Source of the DNA: Verrucomicrobiota bacterium
GTDB taxonomy: Bacteria > Verrucomicrobiota > Verrucomicrobiia > Opitutales > Opitutaceae
Direction of reading: 5' to 3'
Assembly (NCBI GenBank): GCA_030601755.1
Contig: JAUWBF010000001.1
Coordinates: 62,001 to 126,000 of the forward strand
Length of the DNA: 64,000 nt
Part shown: positions 2,698 through 62,617 of the stretch, piece after piece
Numbering within the stretch: position 1 is the stretch's first letter
Layout of the letters: each line of letters starts with the position of its first letter
Notes under the pieces: generated by a model
The model's input: the letters and a program-made list of their open reading frames with translations, nothing else
What the model was told of the DNA's origin: nothing
Database searches by the model: none
Made by a program: the position numbers and the translations under genes

Positions 2698-4953
2698 ATG
2701 CACGTTTCGGCCCTCGTATCTCCCCTGCGTATCCTGACCGCGACCGCCGCCCTCGCCTTGGGCAGCCTCACCGCCGGAGCCGCCGAGAACACCTTCAGCG
2801 CCACCCCGCAACAGTCGCTCGAGGCCAAGGCGCTGGTCCGCCTGCTCGAGCAGGTTCACTACAACCGCGACGCGGTGAAGCCGACCGACTACAAAAACAT
2901 CATCGGCGACTACATGAAGGCCCTCGACGGCCAGCGCCTGTTCTTCCTCGCCAGTGACCGCGTCGAACTCGACGAAAAGTTCCCCGCCGACTCCCTCTAC
3001 TGGAATCTCACCGCCCTCGGCCGCCTCGATCCCGCCTTCGACGTCTTCAAGGTCTACGAAACCCGTGCCGGCAACCGCGCCCAGTGGGTGTTCGATCGCC
3101 TGCAAAAGGACTTCGACCTCTCCACCGACGAGTCCTACCTGCTCGACCGCAAGGAAGCCCCCTGGCCCGCCGACCAGGCCGAGGCCGACGCCCTCTGGGA
3201 ACGCCGCCTGAAGTTCGAGCTCCTCCAGGAGGTGCTCAACGACAAGCCCATCGACGAGGCCAAGTCCGTCGTGCGCAAACGCTACGAACGCCTCGTCCGC
3301 ACCCTCGCCGACTTCGAGTCCATCGACCTCATCGAGCGCTTTCTGGGCACCATCACCCAGATGTATGACCCGCACTCGACCTACTTCTCCGCCGACACCT
3401 TCGAGGACTTCAGCATCAACATGCGCCTGCAACTCTTCGGCATCGGCGCGCTGCTCAGCCTCGAGGACGACCTCTGCGTCATCAAGGAGATCATCCCCGG
3501 CGGCCCCGCCGACCTCGGCCGTCAACTGAAGCCCAACGACAAGATCATCGCCGTCGCCCAGGACGGCGCCGAGCCCGTCGAGATCTTCGGCATGAAGCTC
3601 CGCAAGATCGTCGAGATGATCCGCGGCCCCAAGGACACCAAGGTCCGCCTCGTCATCCAGCCCGCCGACGCCGCCGACAGCTCCGTGCGCCGCGAGATCA
3701 CCATCACCCGCGACGTCGTCAACCTCGACTCCGCCCGCGCCTACGGCGCCGTCTTCCAAGTCCCCGTCTCCGAAGGCGAGCCCGCCGTGCAGACCGCCTC
3801 CTCCGAAGCCACCGACTCCGCCGCCGCCAAGGCCGAGCCCAGGACCCGCCCGATCGGCGTCATCACCCTGCCCGCCTTTTACGGCCCCGACCTCAACGCC
3901 GAATCCAAGCAGAACAGCGCCAGCGAGGACGTCGCCGAACTCATCAAGCGCCTCAAGGCCCAGAACATCGAAGGCCTCGTGCTCGACCTGCGCGGCAACG
4001 GCGGCGGCCTCCTCTCCGAGGCCATCAATCTCACCGGCCTCTTCATCAAGGAAGGCCCCGTCGTGCAGGTCCGCTCCTACTACGGCGACGTCAAGGTCGA
4101 CAGCGACGAGGACCCCGCGGTCGCCTACGACGGCCCGCTCGTCGTGCTCACCTCGCGCTTCAGCGCCTCCGCCTCCGAGATCGTCGCCGGCGCCCTGCAA
4201 AATTACGGCCGCGCCGTCATCATCGGCGACACCTCCACCCACGGCAAAGGCAGCGTGCAGACCGTCATCGAGATGAACCGCGTGCTCTCCAACCTGCTCA
4301 GCGACGACGCCAAGGCCGGCGCCACCAAGCTCACCATTCAAAAATTCTACCTGCCCAACGGCGCCTCCACCCAGCTCAAGGGCGTCGTGCCCGACATCGT
4401 GCTGCCCTCCGTCGACGAGTTCCTCCCCATCGGCGAAAGCGACCTCCCCCACGCCCTCGCCTGGGACGAGATCCCCAGCAGCCTCTTCGATGGCAGCCCC
4501 TACAAACCCGCCATCCTGCAACCCCTCGTCGAGGCCAGCCTCGAGCGCCAGCAGTCCCTTGAGGAGTTTTCCCTGCTCCGCAAAAACATCGACCGCTTCC
4601 GCGACCAACAGGCCGAGAAAACCGTCTCCCTCAACCTCGACAAACGTCAGGAGCGCAAGGCCGCCGACACCGCCTTCCGCGAAGAAATGAAGGAGGAGCG
4701 CAAGCGCCTCGAGGACGCCGACGCCTACGCCTTCGAGGAGACGCTGCTCGCCCCGCCCCCCGCCCCGCGCATCAAGGCCGAGGACGACAACGATGACTCC
4801 GAGAACGCCCTCGACGCCGAGGAGGACGAACACTTTCCCAAGCTCGACATCCCGCTCCGAGAAAGCCTCCGCGTGGTCGTCGACATGCTGGAGACCGGCA
4901 CGCCCGTCCGCCAGCCCGCCCCCGCCGCCGAGCAAGTGACCAAGGCGCTCTGA
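2698..4953 (+). CDS. prc: Tail-specific (C-terminal processing) protease, S41 family
   Basis: Periplasmic protease of 751 residues that degrades or trims proteins from their C-termini. A signal peptide (LTATAALALGSLTAGAAE) is followed by the long N-terminal domain, a PDZ domain (GIGALLSLEDDLCVIKEIIPGGPA), and the S41 core with SASASEIVAGALQNYGRA. By alignment to E. coli Prc, Ser491 and Lys517 (HGKGSVQ) form the Ser/Lys dyad. The C-terminal helical extension (DUF3340-like) with ERKAADTAFREEMKEERKR is the Prc rather than CtpA architecture. The start ATG at 2698 leads straight into the signal peptide. Adjacent to a rhomboid, but no shared function is shown. Confidence 0.93.
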   Translation: MHVSALVSPLRILTATAALALGSLTAGAAENTFSATPQQSLEAKALVRLLEQVHYNRDAVKPTDYKNIIGDYMKALDGQRLFFLASDRVELDEKFPADSLYWNLTALGRLDPAFDVFKVYETRAGNRAQWVFDRLQKDFDLSTDESYLLDRKEAPWPADQAEADALWERRLKFELLQEVLNDKPIDEAKSVVRKRYERLVRTLADFESIDLIERFLGTITQMYDPHSTYFSADTFEDFSINMRLQLFGIGALLSLEDDLCVIKEIIPGGPADLGRQLKPNDKIIAVAQDGAEPVEIFGMKLRKIVEMIRGPKDTKVRLVIQPADAADSSVRREITITRDVVNLDSARAYGAVFQVPVSEGEPAVQTASSEATDSAAAKAEPRTRPIGVITLPAFYGPDLNAESKQNSASEDVAELIKRLKAQNIEGLVLDLRGNGGGLLSEAINLTGLFIKEGPVVQVRSYYGDVKVDSDEDPAVAYDGPLVVLTSRFSASASEIVAGALQNYGRAVIIGDTSTHGKGSVQTVIEMNRVLSNLLSDDAKAGATKLTIQKFYLPNGASTQLKGVVPDIVLPSVDEFLPIGESDLPHALAWDEIPSSLFDGSPYKPAILQPLVEASLERQQSLEEFSLLRKNIDRFRDQQAEKTVSLNLDKRQERKAADTAFREEMKEERKRLEDADAYAFEETLLAPPPAPRIKAEDDNDDSENALDAEEDEHFPKLDIPLRESLRVVVDMLETGTPVRQPAPAAEQVTKAL

Positions 4954-5090: not shown

Positions 5091-5939
5091 TCAATTGCGC
5101 CGCGCAAACACGAACCGGTCGCGCCCAGTCAAGTCCGCCACAGATTCTCCCGCGCCAAGACCCGCGCCCGGCAACATCGCCAGCAACGCCGCGTGGTGCG
5201 CGATGCCCGTCTCCAGCGCCAGCCAGCCATCCGGACGCAACCGCGCGGCCGCGCCCTCCACGATGCGACGCAGATCGGCCAGGCCCGCCTCGGGCGCGGT
5301 CAACGCGCTCAGCGGCTCGAACTCCCGCACCTCGGGCTCGCTCGCGGCGGTCTCCTCCTCGGCGAGGTAGGGCGGGTTGGCCACGATCAGGTCGAACGTC
5401 GCGTCCGGCGGCAGCGCCGCGAACCAATCGGACCGCACCAACCGCACGCGTTCGCCGAGCTGAAGCGCGGCCACGTTCTCGGCGGCCAGCGCCAGCGCGT
5501 CGTCGCTCAGGTCGACGGCCGTCACTACGGCCGCGGGATACAGCGTGGCCAGAGCGCAGGCCAACGCGCCGGTGCCGGTGCCGAGATCAAGGATGGCCGA
5601 CGGCGCGGCGGTCATGCGCGTTTGGATCAGCTCGACCAGATACTCGGTCTCCGGCCGCGGGATGAGCGCGCGGCGGTCGCACTTCAACGTCAGCCCCGCC
5701 CACTCGACCGTGCCGAGGATGTGTTGCAACGGCTCGCGGCGGGCGCGGCGTTTCACGAACGGACGGATGCGGTCGAGCTCGGCCTCGGTCAGCGGACGCT
5801 CGAACTGCAGGTAGAGTTGCATGCGCTTCAGTCCGAGCGCGTGGCCGACCAGCGTCTCGGCGTTGAGCCGCGGCGACTCGACGCCCTTGGACGCGAAGAA
5901 GTCGGCGGTCTTCTGGATGATGTCGAGAATGGTGAGCAT
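5091..5939 (-). CDS. prmC: Release factor glutamine methyltransferase PrmC
   Basis: N5-glutamine methyltransferase of 282 residues that methylates the Gln of the GGQ motif in class I release factors, using S-adenosylmethionine. The N-terminal helical domain (residues 1-80) is followed by the SAM site ILDLGTGTGALACALA and the catalytic NPPY signature in LIVANPPYLAEEE. Substrate-side motif LIPRPETEYLVELI is present. It lies directly downstream of prfA, whose product is its substrate, 34 bases apart on the same strand, the usual prfA-prmC order. Confidence 0.96.
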   Translation of the reverse strand: MLTILDIIQKTADFFASKGVESPRLNAETLVGHALGLKRMQLYLQFERPLTEAELDRIRPFVKRRARREPLQHILGTVEWAGLTLKCDRRALIPRPETEYLVELIQTRMTAAPSAILDLGTGTGALACALATLYPAAVVTAVDLSDDALALAAENVAALQLGERVRLVRSDWFAALPPDATFDLIVANPPYLAEEETAASEPEVREFEPLSALTAPEAGLADLRRIVEGAAARLRPDGWLALETGIAHHAALLAMLPGAGLGAGESVADLTGRDRFVFARRN

Positions 5940-7241: not shown

Positions 7242-8270
7242 ATGTCCACCACGCTCTTCACCCAGAACATCATCGCCTGCATCTGGGACTTCGACAAGAC
7301 GCTCATCCCCGAATACATGCAGTCCCCGCTGTTTCGCCGCTACGGCGTGGACGAGGCGCTGTTCTGGTCGGAGACGAACAGCCTGATGGAGCACTACCGC
7401 CGGCGCGGCTACCACCTCTCGGGCGAGATCGCCTACCTCAACCACCTGCTCACCTACGTGCTCGCGGGCCACATGCCCAAGCTCGGCAACAAGGTCCTGC
7501 GCGAGTGCGGGGCGGACATCCGTTTTTATCAGGGCCTGCCGGATTTCTTCAGCCAGGCCAAACGCTTCGTCGCCGAGAAGGAGCTCTACCGGAAACACGA
7601 GATCCAGCTGGAGCACTACATCGTGAGCACCGGCCTCGCCGAGATGGTGCGCGGCAGCGCCATCGCCCCGCAGGTCGACGGCATCTGGGGCTGCGAGTTC
7701 ATCGAGAACCCGCTGCAGCCGGGCTTCCTCAAGCAGAAGGAGCTCGGCATCGAGGCCGAGGCCGAGATCGCACAAATCGGCATGGTCATCGACAACACGA
7801 CCAAGACCCGCGCGCTGTTCGAGATCAACAAGGGCACCAACAAGAACGCGGCCATCGACGTGAACGCCAACATCGCGCCCGAGGACCGCCGCATCCCGTT
7901 TCAAAACATGATCTACATCGCCGACGGTCCGAGCGACGTGCCGAGCTTCTCGGTGGTGAAGAAGGGCGGCGGCAAGGCTTACGCGGTCTACAACCCCGCC
8001 AAGTCCGAGGAATTCGCGCAAAACGACCGGCTGCGTCAGGTCGGTCGCATCGACCACTACGGGCCCGCCGACTACCGCATGGAGAGCAGCACCGCCCAAT
8101 GGCTGCGCCTGCACATCCACGGCATCTGCGACCGCATCGTCGCCGACCGCGAGGCCGCCGTCGCCCGCCGCGTGTCCAAGCCGCCTCGCCACCTCAACGA
8201 AAGCCCCGAGGAACAGGCCGCCCGCCTCGCGGCCGCACAAGGCCCGAAGCAGTCGACATTTTTGGAGTGA
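7242..8270 (+). CDS. HAD superfamily hydrolase
   Basis: Predicted phosphatase of 342 residues. Motif I is ACIWDFDKTLIP with the nucleophile Asp16 and Asp18; motif II is probably HYIVSTG; the lysine lies in the following region, and motif IV is IYIADGPSDVPSF. The long insert between motif I and II is an all-helical cap. The family is recurrent in bacteria as a stand-alone HAD-like protein without known substrate. I choose the ATG at 7242, which begins eleven residues before motif I; an ATG at 7209 is possible. It is divergent from prfA across a 150-base gap. Confidence 0.85.
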   Translation: MSTTLFTQNIIACIWDFDKTLIPEYMQSPLFRRYGVDEALFWSETNSLMEHYRRRGYHLSGEIAYLNHLLTYVLAGHMPKLGNKVLRECGADIRFYQGLPDFFSQAKRFVAEKELYRKHEIQLEHYIVSTGLAEMVRGSAIAPQVDGIWGCEFIENPLQPGFLKQKELGIEAEAEIAQIGMVIDNTTKTRALFEINKGTNKNAAIDVNANIAPEDRRIPFQNMIYIADGPSDVPSFSVVKKGGGKAYAVYNPAKSEEFAQNDRLRQVGRIDHYGPADYRMESSTAQWLRLHIHGICDRIVADREAAVARRVSKPPRHLNESPEEQAARLAAAQGPKQSTFLE

Positions 8271-8359
8271 GGTTGGACCGGCCCGCCAGTTGGGAAGGCT
8301 CTTCCACGGCCTAACCATCGGGATTGACGCGGGACTCGCGCGGCGCAGTTGGACCCCAC

Positions 8360-8386
8360 AAAAAAGCCCTCCGCGAACGGAGGGCT
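8360..8386 (-). terminator. Rho-independent terminator of the FecR gene
   Basis: Perfect 8-bp stem GCCCTCCG / CGGAGGGC with a four-base loop, followed on the minus strand by six U. It lies 44 bases after the FecR-family stop codon. On the plus strand no U run follows, so it serves the minus-strand gene. Confidence 0.85.
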
Positions 8387-8429
8387 GACGTTGTTTGATC
8401 GGGAATAAAACCTCGACGACCGTATCCGA

Positions 8430-9209
8430 TTAGGGACGTGAGCCGCTGATCTCGTCAGGATCGGGGATGGTGATGGTCCGGGTGAGGATATCACCTTCTC
8501 TGGTCTGGGTAACGCTGACGGTCTCCGACTGACGGGTAGAGATAATTCTGATCAACGTATTGCGCAGGTAGGTGAGCTCATCGGGAGTTATACGGCGGAG
8601 TTCAGGGCTCCTGGCGGCATCATCCATTGACATCCCCTCGGGAATCGGGGCGGTGCGACCGTCGGTGCCGACGTAATACACCAAACCCTCAAGCGTCTTG
8701 ATGATCAATTGACCGGTCGCGAGATTAATGGAGAAATAAAACGTGGTGCCTCGGATGCCAGCGGCGCCGAGCGGGCTATTGACGGTATATTCGGAGCCTT
8801 CGCGCAGTTTGCGCACATCGCCGATCAACCCGCCCTTTTGCACCGTGAGTTCGGTTTTGGAAATCGACGGTTCGAGCGACTCGTCGAGGAGCGCACTCGC
8901 ATCAAACATCTGCTGCTCAAACTTGGTCACCGCGAGCGTGGTTTCCGGCTCGAGCGTGACGGCGGAACCGTTGGCGAAAACGAGCATGGCAGAGGAATTG
9001 GGACCGGTTTTCACGACTGCACCGACGGGGAGCTTGGTCGACTTGGTCACAGGCGCCTCGACCTGAGTCTTCGGGTTCACCCAAGTGACCGTGCCGGAAA
9101 TCTCCGTGATGGAGTAGGTCCCCGGCTTCGTCTGCGCCTGCAGCGCGGAAAAACAGCCGATGACAATCAAGGTTTGAAACCAAAATGCGATCTTGGATGG
9201 GAGTCTCAT
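8430..9209 (-). CDS. FecR-domain protein, exported
   Basis: 259-residue exported protein. A signal peptide (FWFQTLIVIGCFSALQA) precedes a FecR domain: GAVVKTGPNSSAMLVFANGSAVTLE (beta-strand core) and the typical LGAAGIRGTTF motif near residue 150. The C-terminal third (PDELTYLRNTLIRIISTRQS) has no domain I recognise. FecR-fold proteins are usually paired with ECF sigma factors as anti-sigma or sensing proteins. Here a fragment of an ECF sigma gene sits just upstream on the same strand, but interrupted by a PlsC fragment, so the pair looks broken. The ATG at 9209 starts immediately before the signal peptide. It ends in its own terminator. Confidence 0.82.
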   Translation of the reverse strand: MRLPSKIAFWFQTLIVIGCFSALQAQTKPGTYSITEISGTVTWVNPKTQVEAPVTKSTKLPVGAVVKTGPNSSAMLVFANGSAVTLEPETTLAVTKFEQQMFDASALLDESLEPSISKTELTVQKGGLIGDVRKLREGSEYTVNSPLGAAGIRGTTFYFSINLATGQLIIKTLEGLVYYVGTDGRTAPIPEGMSMDDAARSPELRRITPDELTYLRNTLIRIISTRQSETVSVTQTREGDILTRTITIPDPDEISGSRP

Positions 9210-9319
9210 GGTGCGGGATTTTTTTGGCAAAACAGCTGCAATTGGCGAGCGAAAACTGGTAATTGAAGAAGAGCGTCGTTCGAGCGGGTATACTCGGCCA
9301 TCAACGCTAAAAATTTAAT

Positions 9320-9868
9320 TCAAAACGTCTTTTGTTCATCAATATGGGCAGATTTGCGGGTATTCGCTTCACCCACGAGCGCAAGATGATCGCGGAGAAG
9401 CATCAGCACATCATCACGTAACACCCGTGCCAAGGTCTTGCGATCCGAGCCCGCCGACCGCGTTTGCCCCCACGTCACGCCGGCCTCAATCCAAGGCAGC
9501 GTGAGCAGGTTCGCCAGATGCGGCGGCAACGTCATGTCGCCCCACCAAGCCACCTCGGTTTCCACGCTGCGCCCCGCCGGGACCGCGTAGTCCAGCGCGG
9601 CGACCGCCACCGGCCAGCCACCGCGCACCGCCGGCTCCAGCAGCGAGGGTTTGAACGGCAACACCTGCCGACCATCGCTGCTCGTTCCCTCCAGGAACAC
9701 CAGCACGCTTAGGCCCTCGGCGACCAACGGCGACAATTCCGTCCCCACCCGAACGACGTCGCCGGCCTTGCCACGGTCGATGAAGCGCGTGCCCGCCCGC
9801 GCCGCGAACCAACCGAACAACGGCCAACCGCGCACCTCGCGCTTTGCGACGAACACCACCGGCGTCAG
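9320..9868 (-). pseudogene. Lysophosphatidic acid acyltransferase (PlsC) C-terminal fragment
   Basis: From about 9868 the minus strand encodes LTPVVFVAKREVRGWPLFGW, then GTRFIDRGKAGD and FLEGTSSDGRQVLPFKPSL, the second and third conserved blocks of the PlsC/LPLAT acyltransferase family, to a stop at 9320. The first block with the catalytic HX4D is missing, because the sequence upstream changes abruptly into an ECF sigma factor in another frame. No start codon belongs to this part. Either a deletion has fused two genes or the assembly is wrong here. A functional acyltransferase is not expected without HX4D. Confidence 0.75.
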
Positions 9869-50706: not shown

Positions 50707-51534
50707 TCACAGGCCGAAGTAGCGCTTCATGATTTCATGGCGGATGCGCCAGGTGCCGAAGCGCACGAGGAAGGGGGCGACGCAGGCTTGGAAAAACGCG
50801 CCGCTGCGCACGATGCCGGTGCGGCGGCGGAGGATGGCGCGGCGCAGGTCGGCGGCGGCGCGGGTGGGGCGCGGGGCGACGTCGAGGTTGCGGCCGAGGA
50901 CCTTCCAGGCGCGTTGGGCGCGGGGAGTGTCGGCACCGGCGCCCTGGGTGGCGACGCGGTTGAAGTCGGTGCGGTAGTCGCCGGGGCGGAAGTCGACGAT
51001 GCACACGCCGCTGCCGGCGAGCTCGACGGCGAGGCTTTCGCTCCAGGCGGAGAGGCCGGCTTTCACGACGTTGTAGCCGCTCATGAAGGGCAGCGGGAAC
51101 TCGACGGCGAGCGAGCTGATGTTGACGAGGTGGCCGCGTCCGCGGGGCTTCATCTCGAGCAGCGCGAGGCGGCCGAGGCGGAGGGTGGCCTTGAGCATCT
51201 CGTCGATCTGGGCGTCCCACACGGCGGGGTCCTCGGCAAGGGTGTCGGCAAAGATGCCGTAGCCGGCGTTGTTGACGACGAGGTGGAAACCGCCGGCCTG
51301 CGCGGAGGCGTCGAGATAGGCGCGCTCGGCGGCGGCGGGATCGCCGAGGTTGAGCGCGACGGGCGTGAAGAGCGGGTTTCCGGCGAGTTCGGTCAGGCGT
51401 TCGACCGAGCGGGCGGTGCCCCAGACGCGCACGCCTTCGGCGAGCAGCATCTCGCTAAAGGCGCGACCGAGGCCCTGGCTGGCGCCGGTGACGAAGGCGG
51501 TCGGGACGAGTTCGGCGAGCGGCGACGCGGCCAT
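50707..51534 (-). CDS. Short-chain dehydrogenase/reductase
   Basis: 275-residue classical SDR. The cofactor motif is VTGASQGLGRAFSEML (TGx3GxG), then NNAGYGIF, the catalytic serine in VNISSLAVEFPLP and the YxxxK pair in YNVVK. The substrate loop and a basic C-terminus (FLVRFGTWRIRHEIMKRYFG) are longer than in FabG. As it lies 36 bases after the ketosynthase gene, it could be the ketoreductase of an acyl-chain pathway, but its sequence does not prove a ketoacyl substrate. Confidence 0.87.
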   Translation of the reverse strand: MAASPLAELVPTAFVTGASQGLGRAFSEMLLAEGVRVWGTARSVERLTELAGNPLFTPVALNLGDPAAAERAYLDASAQAGGFHLVVNNAGYGIFADTLAEDPAVWDAQIDEMLKATLRLGRLALLEMKPRGRGHLVNISSLAVEFPLPFMSGYNVVKAGLSAWSESLAVELAGSGVCIVDFRPGDYRTDFNRVATQGAGADTPRAQRAWKVLGRNLDVAPRPTRAAADLRRAILRRRTGIVRSGAFFQACVAPFLVRFGTWRIRHEIMKRYFGL

Positions 51535-51570
51535 GTTGCGCGGGCGGTGGGTGCGGAGCGACGACGGGCG

Positions 51571-52836
51571 TCAGGAGGAGACGCGCTTGAGCACGGCGCA
51601 GACGTTGGCGCCGCCGAAACCGCTGCTGTTGTTGAGCACGATGTCGGGCGCGGTGGGCAGCGTCTGGCGGATGATGTTGAGCCCCGCGCAGGCCGGATCG
51701 AGTTCGGCGATGTGGGCGGAGCCGGGCGTGAAGCCGCGACGCATGGCGAGGGCGCAGAAGGCGGTCTCCATGGCGCCGGCGAGCGAGAGGCCGTGGCCGG
51801 TGAGGGCCTTGGTGCTGCTGACGGGCACGGTGGCGGCGTGGGCGCCGAGGACGGCGCGGATGGCCTTGCACTCGGAGGCATCGCCGATGGGCGTGGAGGT
51901 GGCGTGGGCGTTGATGTAGCCGAGGTCGGCGGGACCGATGCCGGCGGCCTTGAGGGCGCGGCGCATGGCGTTGGCGAGGCCAAGGCCGTCGGGGTGGGAA
52001 ATGGCGACGTTGTGGCCGTCGGAGGCCTGGCCCCAGCCAAGCACCTCGGCGTAGGGCGTGACGCCGCGGCGCTGGACCTCGGCCTCGCTCTCGAGGACGA
52101 GCACGACGCCGCCACCGGTGCCGACGAAGCCGTCGTGCTTCGCGTCAAAGGGGCGCGAGGCGGTGTCGGGGTCGGGGTTTTGGGTGAGCGCCCGCATGCT
52201 GGCGAAGGGCAGGATGGTCTCGGCGTTGCCGTCCTCGGCGCCGATGACGAACATGCGTTGCTGGCGGCCGAGGGCGATGTCGTCGTAGGCAAAGCCAAGC
52301 GCATGGGTCGAGGAGGCGCAGGCGGAGGAGAAGCCGGTGGAGGCGCCCTTGATCTTGAAGTGCGCGACAAGGTTGAACTGCACGGTGCCCGCGATGCTGG
52401 CGACCACGCCGAGCGGCGGGCAGCGCATGACGCCGGCCTGACTCATCTTGTTGAGGTTGCGCGCGAGCATGCCGGGAGAGCCGGCCGAGGCGGCGTAGAG
52501 ACCGGTCTCGTCGTTGGAGACGTCGGCATCGGACAAGCCGGCGTCGGCGATGGCCTGGTGCAGGGCACAGGCGGCGTAAAGGGCGTTGGGGCTGAGGCTG
52601 CGCAACATCTCGCGCCGGATCTGGTAGGGCGCGGGGATGGTCCAGTCCTCGGAGTCGGGCGAGTCGGTGACGAAGTCGCGCACGGGGGCGGCGACTTTCA
52701 CAGGACAGTTTTCCCGGTCAAACGGCGCGTAGCGGACCATCCCGTGCCGCAGGTCGCGCAAACTGGCCTCCACGGTGGAGGCGTCGTTGCCGATGCTGGT
52801 GATGAATCCGATTCCGGTGATAAAAACGCGTGACAT
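51571..52836 (-). CDS. Beta-ketoacyl-ACP synthase (FabF/FabB-like)
   Basis: 421-residue condensing enzyme. The active-site cysteine lies in STGFSSACASSTHALGFAYD (Cys173), the two histidines in INAHATSTPIGD (His311) and STKALTGHGLSLAGA (His348). The gate motif is NNSSGFGGANVCAVLKR. It therefore should elongate an acyl chain with malonyl-ACP. It resembles secondary-pathway KAS enzymes more than primary FabF in the N-terminal region (DRENCPVKVAAPVRDF). It lies between the ACP-dehydratase fusion gene and the SDR gene on the same strand. Confidence 0.92.
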   Translation of the reverse strand: MSRVFITGIGFITSIGNDASTVEASLRDLRHGMVRYAPFDRENCPVKVAAPVRDFVTDSPDSEDWTIPAPYQIRREMLRSLSPNALYAACALHQAIADAGLSDADVSNDETGLYAASAGSPGMLARNLNKMSQAGVMRCPPLGVVASIAGTVQFNLVAHFKIKGASTGFSSACASSTHALGFAYDDIALGRQQRMFVIGAEDGNAETILPFASMRALTQNPDPDTASRPFDAKHDGFVGTGGGVVLVLESEAEVQRRGVTPYAEVLGWGQASDGHNVAISHPDGLGLANAMRRALKAAGIGPADLGYINAHATSTPIGDASECKAIRAVLGAHAATVPVSSTKALTGHGLSLAGAMETAFCALAMRRGFTPGSAHIAELDPACAGLNIIRQTLPTAPDIVLNNSSGFGGANVCAVLKRVSS

Positions 52837-52979
52837 GCTGGCGGTTGGCAAATCCGCAGCGTTCAGGATGTCACGGGCGTGTTAAAGTAAAAAACACGTT
52901 TCCGAAAAACCGCGTGTCCGATGCACTGTCCGCGAGGAGACCGCGGTGGCGGTGGTGGCTGTGCCGGTGGCGGCAAAGG

Positions 52980-53885
52980 TCAACCGGCCGACGAAGCCGC
53001 GGCGGGCGCGGCCGGAGCGGCCTTGTCGACGAAGCCGAACGTGAGCGTGATCTCCTCGGCGACGACGGCCTTGTCGGCGTCCACTCGGATGGAGCCCTCG
53101 AAGACGGCCAGCGGCATCTTTACGCGCTTCGGCTTCATGGAGAGCGTGAGCACGTCACCCGGCTTGCAAACGCGGTGGCAGCGCACTCCGTCGGACGAGG
53201 TGAAAAAAATGGTGTTGGTCCCGACCTCCTGCCCCTCGGGCGCAGGCATGGCGGTCAGCAGGTGGAAAACGCCAAGCTGGCCCAGCGCCTCAAGCATGAT
53301 GGAGGCGGGCATGACGGGATTGTCCTTGAAGTGTCCCTTAAGGAAGAACTCTTCTCCGGTGATCTTGTATTTACCGGTCGCACCCGACTCAGAGACCTCG
53401 GCCTCGTTGAGGAAAAGGAAGGGCGGCTGGATCGGCATGCGTTGCAGGATCGACTCGATGCCGTGGTGCTCGGCGGGAGCCGGAGGAGGAACGCCGCGGG
53501 CCTTGCAATCAATGAAGACCTTGATGTCGCCCAAAGTGCGCAGATTCCGCAACTCGTCATTGCTGATCGACATGCCTACGACCTCTTCGACCAGCATGAC
53601 GATCTCCATCATGGTCAGGGAATCGATGCCAAGGTCGTCGATCATGCGCAGACCGTCGCTGTTGCCGTCGGCGAGCTTGGGCCGCAGATCGGGATCAACA
53701 AAGCGCTCAACCACGCCCAGAATGATCACCGGCAGATGCTCGGTCGCGCCGGTCTGGCGGAAAGCGATGGCCGCGTTGACCGTGGCCTCGGAGCAACGGC
53801 GCAGGCTCTCCCGCAGCGCGGCCTCGTCCTCGGCGGAAAAAGGCTTGGTGGACTGAGCGTTTGTGGAGGCGGATCCTTCGGTCAT
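52980..53885 (-). CDS. Acyl carrier protein fused to FabZ-like dehydratase
   Basis: 301 residues in two domains. Residues 20-130 form an acyl carrier protein: MIDDLGIDSLTMMEIVMLVE with Ser89 as the phosphopantetheine site. Residues 140-290 form a hot-dog dehydratase: EEFFLKGHFKDNPVMPASIM and LEALGQL, with His185 and Glu199 in the positions of the FabZ catalytic pair. A low-complexity Ala/Pro tail closes the protein. It opens a minus-strand cluster with ketosynthase, SDR and glycosyltransferase. Carrier and dehydratase on one chain outside a type I PKS are unusual. Confidence 0.87.
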   Translation of the reverse strand: MTEGSASTNAQSTKPFSAEDEAALRESLRRCSEATVNAAIAFRQTGATEHLPVIILGVVERFVDPDLRPKLADGNSDGLRMIDDLGIDSLTMMEIVMLVEEVVGMSISNDELRNLRTLGDIKVFIDCKARGVPPPAPAEHHGIESILQRMPIQPPFLFLNEAEVSESGATGKYKITGEEFFLKGHFKDNPVMPASIMLEALGQLGVFHLLTAMPAPEGQEVGTNTIFFTSSDGVRCHRVCKPGDVLTLSMKPKRVKMPLAVFEGSIRVDADKAVVAEEITLTFGFVDKAAPAAPAAASSAG

Positions 53886-61027: not shown

Positions 61028-62617
61028 TCACCAGACCAGCAGGCCGCCGGCAAAAGTGAGACCGGCGCCGACCGAGCAGAAGATGATCTTGTCGCCGGGC
61101 TTGAAAATGCCCTCCTCGGCGGCCCAGCCGAGCGCCATGGAGACGGACGCGCCGGAGGTATTGCCGTATTTGGAGATGGTCACGACGAATTTTTCGAACG
61201 GGATGCCGACACGTTTGCCAACGGCCTTCAGGATGCGCTCGTTGGCCTGGTGGGGCACGATCCACGCGATGTCGTCGGGTGTGAGACCATGACGCTGCAT
61301 GGCATGCTCGATCTCGTTGGCGAAGGCGATGACGGCGCTCTTGAAGACCGCGCCGCCGTCCATCTGCAGGTAGAAGTCCTTGAGGTCGCTGCCGTCGGCG
61401 CAGGGCAAGAGACGGTTGGCGCCGCCGCCGGGACGCTGGATGGCCTCGAAAACACTGGCGTCTCCGGAGAGCGCCATGCGGTGCAGGCGATGGCCTCCGG
61501 GGGCGTCCGTCAAAATGGCCGCGCCCGCGCCGTCGCCAAAGAGGAAGGCGGTCTCATGGTCGTTGGGATTGGTGATGCGCGAGAGGAGTTCGGCAGTGAC
61601 CACGATGACCTTGCGGGCGGTGCCGCCGCGGATGAAGGCGCGGCCGACCTCCAGCGCATAGAGCCAGCCGGAGCAGGCGGCATTGAGGTCGAAGGCAAGC
61701 GCCTTGGTGCAGCCAAGGTGCTTGGCGAGCGAGCTGGCCATCGAGGGCACCGGCTGGTCGGGGATGATGGTCGCGAGCACGATGCCATCAATCTCGGCGG
61801 CGGTCACCCCCGCCTGCTTGAGCGCGTGATTGACAGCGGTGGCGGCGAGGCTGGTCGCGGACTCGCCGGGATCGGCGTAGCGACGCTCCTTAATGCCCGT
61901 AAGCTTGACCATCTCGGCTTCGGTGCGGCCGGGGAAAGCCTTGAGGATCTCGCTGGTGGGCCGGACGTTTTTTGGCACGGCATAGCCGACACCGGCGATG
62001 CAAACGGTCTGGTCTGCGGAAACTCCGGGCGCGGCGACGGCGGGAGTCGGGGTGGCGGCGGGAGCCGCGGTAACCGCACCGGACGCGATAAAGTTGGTGA
62101 TGTCGTCACCCGAAACACGCCCCCCGGGACCGGTGGCGGGCACGCCGGTGAGGGCGGCGGGATCGAGGCCGGCGTCGCGGGCGATCTTGATCGCACGCGG
62201 AGTCCACTGGGGGCCGGTGGCGGGCGCGGGAGCAACCGGGGCGGCGACCGGCGTCGGCGTGGCCGCCGGAGCCGAAGCGTGAGTAGGAGCAACCGAGACC
62301 GACGCGGCAGGCTTGGCGGCCGGCTGCGGCACGACGCCCGCGCCCACGGAAAGGTGCTTGAGGGAGATGTCGGCGGTCTCGATGCGCAGGAACGGCGAGC
62401 CGGAGGAAACGATGTCGCCGGCGCGGCAGAAAACCTCGCGCACGGTGCCATCGCAAGGGGCTTCCCACTCGAAGACCGACTTGTCGCTCTCGAGTTCGGC
62501 CGCCTTGACGCCCTTGGACAGCTTGGCGCCGGGTTGGACGAGAATGTCGATCACCGTGAGTTCGCTGACGGTGGCCCCCATGGAGGGCATCGGGACGTCG
62601 ATGAGGAATGTTTCCAT
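61028..62617 (-). CDS. Lipoyl domain / E3-binding domain / KAS III (FabH-like) fusion
   Basis: 529 residues in three modules. Residues 1-80 are a lipoyl domain with the modified lysine in ELESDKSVFEWEAP (Lys46). A Pro/Ala linker (90-135) leads to a peripheral subunit-binding domain, residues 138-178 (TPRAIKIARDAGLDPAALTG, GPGGRVSGDDI). A second Pro/Ala linker precedes a KAS III domain (204-529) with FDLNAACSGWLYALEVGRAF (Cys315), IVPHQANERILKAVGKRVGI (His456) and ISKYGNTSGASVSMA (Asn486). So it has the mobile arm and docking site of a 2-oxoacid dehydrogenase E2, but a ketosynthase instead of the E2 acyltransferase. It could take an acyl group from lipoate to prime a chain. Divergent from HMG-CoA reductase. 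Confidence 0.92.
   Translation of the reverse strand: METFLIDVPMPSMGATVSELTVIDILVQPGAKLSKGVKAAELESDKSVFEWEAPCDGTVREVFCRAGDIVSSGSPFLRIETADISLKHLSVGAGVVPQPAAKPAASVSVAPTHASAPAATPTPVAAPVAPAPATGPQWTPRAIKIARDAGLDPAALTGVPATGPGGRVSGDDITNFIASGAVTAAPAATPTPAVAAPGVSADQTVCIAGVGYAVPKNVRPTSEILKAFPGRTEAEMVKLTGIKERRYADPGESATSLAATAVNHALKQAGVTAAEIDGIVLATIIPDQPVPSMASSLAKHLGCTKALAFDLNAACSGWLYALEVGRAFIRGGTARKVIVVTAELLSRITNPNDHETAFLFGDGAGAAILTDAPGGHRLHRMALSGDASVFEAIQRPGGGANRLLPCADGSDLKDFYLQMDGGAVFKSAVIAFANEIEHAMQRHGLTPDDIAWIVPHQANERILKAVGKRVGIPFEKFVVTISKYGNTSGASVSMALGWAAEEGIFKPGDKIIFCSVGAGLTFAGGLLVW

Follow-up and report, generated by a model that had tools for sequence, protein, structure and literature searches.

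It was concluded that a gene of the analyzed window, which is the whole stretch of 64,000 nucleotides, encoded a single polypeptide composed of a lipoyl domain, a peripheral subunit-binding domain (PSBD) and a KAS III (FabH-type) ketosynthase, and this architecture was considered real practically beyond doubt. We proposed that the protein would act as an E2-like hub in a 2-oxoacid dehydrogenase complex of unusual make-up, in which a ketosynthase would take the place of the E2 catalytic core. As the catalytic unit of E2, the ketosynthase would probably couple an oxidative decarboxylation directly to a Claisen condensation with malonyl-ACP, with no acyl-CoA intermediate.

The reaction was modeled as a sequence of four steps. 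A dedicated ThDP-dependent fused E1 would decarboxylate a 2-oxoacid and reductively acylate the lipoyl group on Lys46. The S-acyl group would then be carried by the arm straight to Cys315 in the tethered KAS III, bypassing acyl-CoA, and KAS III would condense it with malonyl-ACP, yielding 3-oxoacyl-ACP as the first intermediate in building a fatty-acid chain. Finally, the arm would be reoxidized by dihydrolipoamide dehydrogenase (E3), either docked to the PSBD or in solution. The net reaction would be 2-oxoacid + malonyl-ACP + NAD+ -> 3-oxoacyl-ACP + 2 CO2 + NADH, the likeliest substrates being branched-chain 2-oxoacids, which would provide iso and anteiso starters. The E1 step would follow the established E1/E2 chemistry and the condensation the established FabH chemistry; lipoylation, docking, the substrate and the new step of the scheme, the transfer from lipoyl to Cys, are the parts that we infer.

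Domain organization of the fusion protein

The gene was located on the minus strand at 61028..62617, from an ATG at 62617 to a stop codon ending at 61028, and encoded 529 amino acids; all coordinates of its parts given below refer to the same strand. A Biotin_lipoyl domain (Pfam PF00364, 2.4e-12) was found at residues 7-79 (62381..62599). It contained the predicted lipoylation site Lys46 (62480..62482) within an ESDKS motif, of which E43, S44, D45, K46 and S47 were invariant in 23 homologues. An E3_binding domain, i.e. the PSBD, followed at residues 139-173 (62099..62203; PF02817, 1.2e-6, 29.1 bits against a cut-off of 23.7). The domains were separated by Ala/Pro-rich linkers resembling those of E2 proteins, and the one at residues 93-133 (62219..62341) was assigned as flexible from its sequence and a pLDDT below 50.

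The KAS III domain covered residues 204-529 (61031..62008) and was recognized by PF08545/PF08541, by matches to FabH structures of the PDB and by the NCBIfam model PRK09352 (beta-ketoacyl-ACP synthase 3, 310.8 bits over residues 204-529). Within it, ACP_syn_III was placed at residues 309-382 (1.7e-24) and ACP_syn_III_C at residues 440-529 (2.2e-30), so that all four Pfam domains of the fusion scored above the gathering cut-off. The PF00198 (2-oxoacid_dh) catalytic domain was absent from the fusion according to Pfam, and the KAS III stood instead. The alignment assigned the catalytic residues as Cys315 (61673..61675), His456 (61250..61252) and Asn486 (61160..61162), equivalent to C112, H244 and N274 of E. 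coli FabH, and all three, as well as D45 and K46, were invariant in 23 fused homologues. An AlphaFold2 model built from the 23-row alignment contained a confident lipoyl sandwich, beta-rich and with a pLDDT mostly of 75-95, two confident PSBD helices and a KAS III part of moderate quality (mean pLDDT 69.8), which matched FabH structures in Foldseek. The preliminary description had read a lipoyl domain with a DKS motif, a PSBD and a FabH-type domain with an intact Cys-His-Asn triad from this single chain, and the Pfam, NCBIfam and alignment results bore this out; the search for Biotin_lipoyl, E3_binding and ACP_syn_III that it had suggested returned all three above cut-off.

No operon partners of the fusion gene were found in the window, where it was flanked by an HMG-CoA reductase and a response regulator/kinase. 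The HMG-CoA reductase gene (PF00368; 62775-64000, plus strand) was divergent from it. At 50707-53885 on the minus strand lay genes for an SDR, for a ketosynthase of the FabB/F type and for a protein of 301 aa, which contained a FabA-like domain and may have a carrier region at its N-terminus. These possibly constitute a type II acyl-chain cluster of their own, some 7 kb from the fusion.

Distribution of the module

Full-length fusions were recorded in more than 20 genera of one Opitutales family, and the fusion was found in most of 80 public genome records. Among 57 sampled genomes, a full-length match occurred in 21, the source genome counted, the others matching the KAS III part only or a cut piece. 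Full-length matches of ~60-77% identity were found in some 20 further genomes, several of which consisted of single-contig chromosomes. In a sample of 388 genomes of the phylum, matches with E values of 1e-75 or lower came from 21, every one a member of the family of the source genome; a full fusion was also carried by G043, a genome of a different family of the same order. The named carriers included Ereboglobus sp. PH5-10, Pelagicoccus, Opitutaceae bacterium EW11 and Verrucomicrobiae bacterium DG1235. A misassembly or a chance fusion was ruled out by the conservation across many genera and on complete chromosomes. A domain order not shared by relatives and an artificial joining of an E2 and a fabH gene, which the preliminary description had named as refuting outcomes, were not borne out by the survey across Verrucomicrobiota that it had called for.

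The module was also present in another phylum. A Spirochaetia MAG (L296) matched the fusion over its full length with 40% identity, its PSBD not being recognized by Pfam, and one further full-length relative (G680), 61% identical to that of L296, was recovered when 393 Spirochaetota genomes were screened. In the KAS III tree, the Opitutales and Spirochaetota members formed one clade apart from ordinary FabH (SH-aLRT 95), and in the tree of the E1 alpha half the corresponding E1 proteins formed one clade apart from other E1s (SH-aLRT 99.9); both trees were built quickly and contained some long branches.

In seven genomes (G003, G006, G017, G018, G021, G025 and G030), a lipoyl-PSBD gene was followed by a KAS III gene as a separate neighbor, with a 4-base overlap or a few tens of bases between them where both ends were clear. 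Three of these two-gene forms nested inside the fused ones in the KAS III tree, which suggests that they arose by fission of a fused gene.

Several records deviated from the general pattern. A second, divergent full-length fusion (L198, G332:C66:12449-13978) with 54% identity was encoded beside the usual copy in the same genome. Fusions of 69-73% identity were found in MAGs (L224, L230 and L228) whose records bear the titles Akkermansia muciniphila, in two cases, or Candidatus Sumerlaeota; these are probably mislabeled or contaminated bins. Geminisphaera colitermitum TAV2 showed the KAS III part only, at a contig end, and no E3-binding domain was found in its whole draft (G427, the genome of L271), which reflects either gaps or a loss of the PDH and OGDH E2 proteins. 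A search of plasmids returned KAS III only, without the lipoyl part.

The orphan E1 and its probable substrate

The source genome encoded three E1_dh proteins, namely PdhA (contig C8), SucA (C144) and a fused alpha/beta E1 of 675 aa (C55:34602-36626) with E1_dh, Transket_pyr and Transketolase_C domains, located on a contig other than that of the fusion. Two E2 catalytic domains were found, beside PdhA and SucA, and the third of the three E3-binding domains belonged to the fusion. Counts for eight module-carrying genomes of the family gave this arrangement each time: E3-binding proteins numbered three and E2 catalytic domains two, and one E1 of ~700 or more amino acids had no E2; G020 had one further E1. 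The PDH and OGDH complexes were present in most of the module-carrying genomes. In G043, the single E1 was of the orphan type, PF00198 was absent, and the only E3-binding protein was the fusion. Despite having no conventional E2, G043 possessed lipA and lpd, which a glycine cleavage system would likewise require, and both genes were present in each of the six genomes checked.

The orphan E1 and the module were distributed together. Across 57 genomes, 34 had both, 1 the E1 orthologue only, 1 the module only and 21 neither, and across the 44 genomes that were at least 90% complete, 27 had both, none had either one alone and 17 had neither. The p-values of ~1e-12 for this co-occurrence ignore relatedness and so overstate it, and the co-occurrence partly tracks family membership; the informative cases were G009 and G010, which belong to the family and lack both, G043, which lies outside the family and has both, and the Spirochaetota. 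In the two Spirochaetota genomes, the genes were adjacent: 23 bases separated the E1 of L296 (5986-7968) from the fusion directly downstream (7992-9533), and 35 bases separated that of G680 (8659-6680) from its fusion (6644-5040). The docking domain had been taken in the preliminary description to imply the binding of a dehydrogenase component, and a candidate is now at hand in an E1 without an E2, which co-occurs with the module and adjoins the fusion in both of these genomes. As judged from sequence, the orphan E1 is very probably the partner of the fusion.

The E1 and fusion genes of Opitutales were not neighbors. The module followed pyrG(-kdsA) in most Opitutales loci, its conserved neighbors being pyrG, kdsA and rsmE, while the orphan E1 stood beside kdsC, with the lpt genes next (kdsC-lptC-lptA-lptB), in all 12 Opitutales loci inspected around it (L142:4602-10943, L143-L150, L154, L155 and L328). 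Thus, both lay within Kdo/LPS neighborhoods, and the two may perhaps be parts of one ancestral locus.

It is rather probable that the substrate of the E1 is branched-chain. Several Opitutaceae are rich in iso and anteiso acids (PMC5303756; PMC12193912), and Lacunisphaera limnophila contains 48.6% iso-C15:0 together with iso-C13:0 3-OH (PMC5303756). The profiles support this weakly and were rejected as proof of the role, since relatives in other families likewise contain iso and anteiso acids (PMC10288369). Alternatively, the same CoA-independent mechanism could operate on pyruvate or another 2-oxoacid and supply straight-chain or special starters, e.g. for lipid A. The Kdo/LPS setting, with pyrG-kdsA by the module and kdsC-lptC-lptA-lptB after the E1, would suit such a role, and the best NCBIfam matches of the E1 were PDH models, none above the cut-off. 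On the other hand, the alpha half of the E1 was nearest to BCKDH alpha among solved structures, F87 of FabH was replaced by V or I in the lipoyl-linked KAS III of Opitutales, and the fatty acids were those described above; none of these three points was decisive. We regard a pyruvate or other 2-oxoacid substrate as possible, with roughly the weight of a minority reading, and, being a variant of the best explanation, it overlaps with the latter.

The CoA clamp and the predicted acyl transfer

In FabH, the adenine of CoA is stacked between W32 and R151, and R36 binds pantetheine (PMC4606726). In the fusion, E235 and L239 (residues 235-239, 61901..61915) were aligned with the W32 and R36 positions of E. 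coli FabH and His354 (61556..61558) with that of R151. All 35 lipoyl-linked KAS III proteins of Opitutales, fused or split, had lost this clamp (W32 to E/D/A, R36 to L/V/I/T and R151 to H/Y/F/P), whereas all 12 ordinary FabH proteins from the same genome set retained W32, R36 and R151. C112, H244, N274, K214 and R249 were common to both groups, and positions 256/257 were K or R in the lipoyl-linked proteins of Opitutales. The Spirochaetota fusions had two of the three clamp residues replaced (W32 to Y and R36 to V, R151 being kept), R for K214 and, in one of them, H for K256. Since R36 was H in some ordinary Spirochaetota FabH, W32 and R151 carry more weight. These substitutions indicate that the acyl-CoA primer site would be lost in the lipoyl-linked KAS III, the ACP contacts being mostly retained.

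KAS III enzymes normally use acyl-CoA. The fused KAS III could therefore still do so, the lipoyl domain and PSBD only localizing it to a dehydrogenase complex and channeling the acyl-CoA made nearby, and the PDH and OGDH complexes found in most of these genomes would permit this. Such tethering was considered improbable, as the clamp was gone in the lipoyl-linked members but retained in the ordinary paralogues, the orphan E1 had no E2 catalytic domain with which acyl-CoA would be made (in G043 there was none at all), and an invariant lipoyl lysine would be unnecessary for mere tethering. Still less credible is a transacylase, i.e. a KAS III that hands the lipoyl-bound acyl group over to holo-ACP and so provides acyl-ACP for another ketosynthase: it would agree with the mostly retained ACP-contact residues and with the QncN/QncL system, in which an E1/lipoyl pair passes a two-carbon unit on towards ACP (PMC6335953), but not with the invariant and complete Cys-His-Asn triad, which is needed for decarboxylative condensation.

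A direct transfer from lipoyl to KAS III, by which fatty-acid chains would be started without acyl-CoA, was considered quite probable from the residues and gene contents compared. It was also observed that a dedicated KAS III was missing from G015, G027, G028 and G036, which kept the E1 and a lipoyl-PSBD protein, and that the remaining FabH of these four relatives kept the CoA clamp. The lipoyl-PSBD proteins without a catalytic domain were encoded at L151:7297-7770 (G015), L152:7519-8100 (G036), L153, ~2979-3470 (G027) and L330, ~5393-5854 (G028). An arm without a dedicated KAS III was not predicted by the simple model; in these relatives, the arm may act in trans on an ordinary FabH, or a different route may be used. 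The earlier suggestion of a KAS III that stands in for the E2 acyltransferase and would receive the acyl group from lipoate, skipping acyl-CoA, was supported by the domain order, the orphan E1, the gene pair, the lost CoA clamp with mostly retained ACP contacts, and the E3 (lpd) and lipA genes of a genome with no conventional E2, while the four relatives did not conform to it.

By its own domains, the fusion is neither an ordinary E2, having no acyltransferase, nor an ordinary FabH, having no CoA clamp. It resembles the E2 of PDH, OGDH and BCKDH in its N-terminal lipoyl domain, Ala/Pro linker, PSBD and alpha/beta-type E1 partner; unlike them, it carries a KAS III in place of the PF00198 core, and neither a transfer to CoA nor a 24- or 60-meric E2 core would be expected. 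With KAS III/FabH, including Bkd-FabH, it shares the fold, the Cys-His-Asn triad, most of the ACP contacts and the predicted start of chains with malonyl-ACP, but its clamp residues are lost and its primer would be expected from the tethered lipoyl arm rather than from acyl-CoA.

In the glycolicacyl loading of quinocarcin, the E1-like ThDP enzyme and the lipoyl protein of QncN/QncL load an acyl group without free acyl-CoA (PMC6335953). This is the nearest described logic to that of the fusion. NapB/NapD of naphthyridinomycin are reported to load likewise with an E1-like ThDP enzyme and a lipoyl protein, without free acyl-CoA. However, an acyltransferase follows the lipoyl domain in QncL/NapD and serves ACP, whereas the fusion has no PF00198 and its ketosynthase would be expected to form a C-C bond; furthermore, both known pairs belong to secondary metabolism and the fusion apparently to primary metabolism. 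The preliminary description knew of no characterized enzyme with this domain order, and a description of a lipoyl-KAS III fusion was likewise not found in the open-access literature.

In textbook fatty-acid initiation, the acyl group is taken from CoA. If the proposed scheme is true, the acyl group would pass from the keto acid to lipoate and on to the ketosynthase within one complex, a route that was not found described in the open-access literature either. The E2 core of a complex of central metabolism would then be exchangeable for an enzyme that forms C-C bonds, and a compact part would be available for making branched chains without a branched acyl-CoA pool. The scheme would also explain the presence of an orphan E1 across a whole bacterial family.
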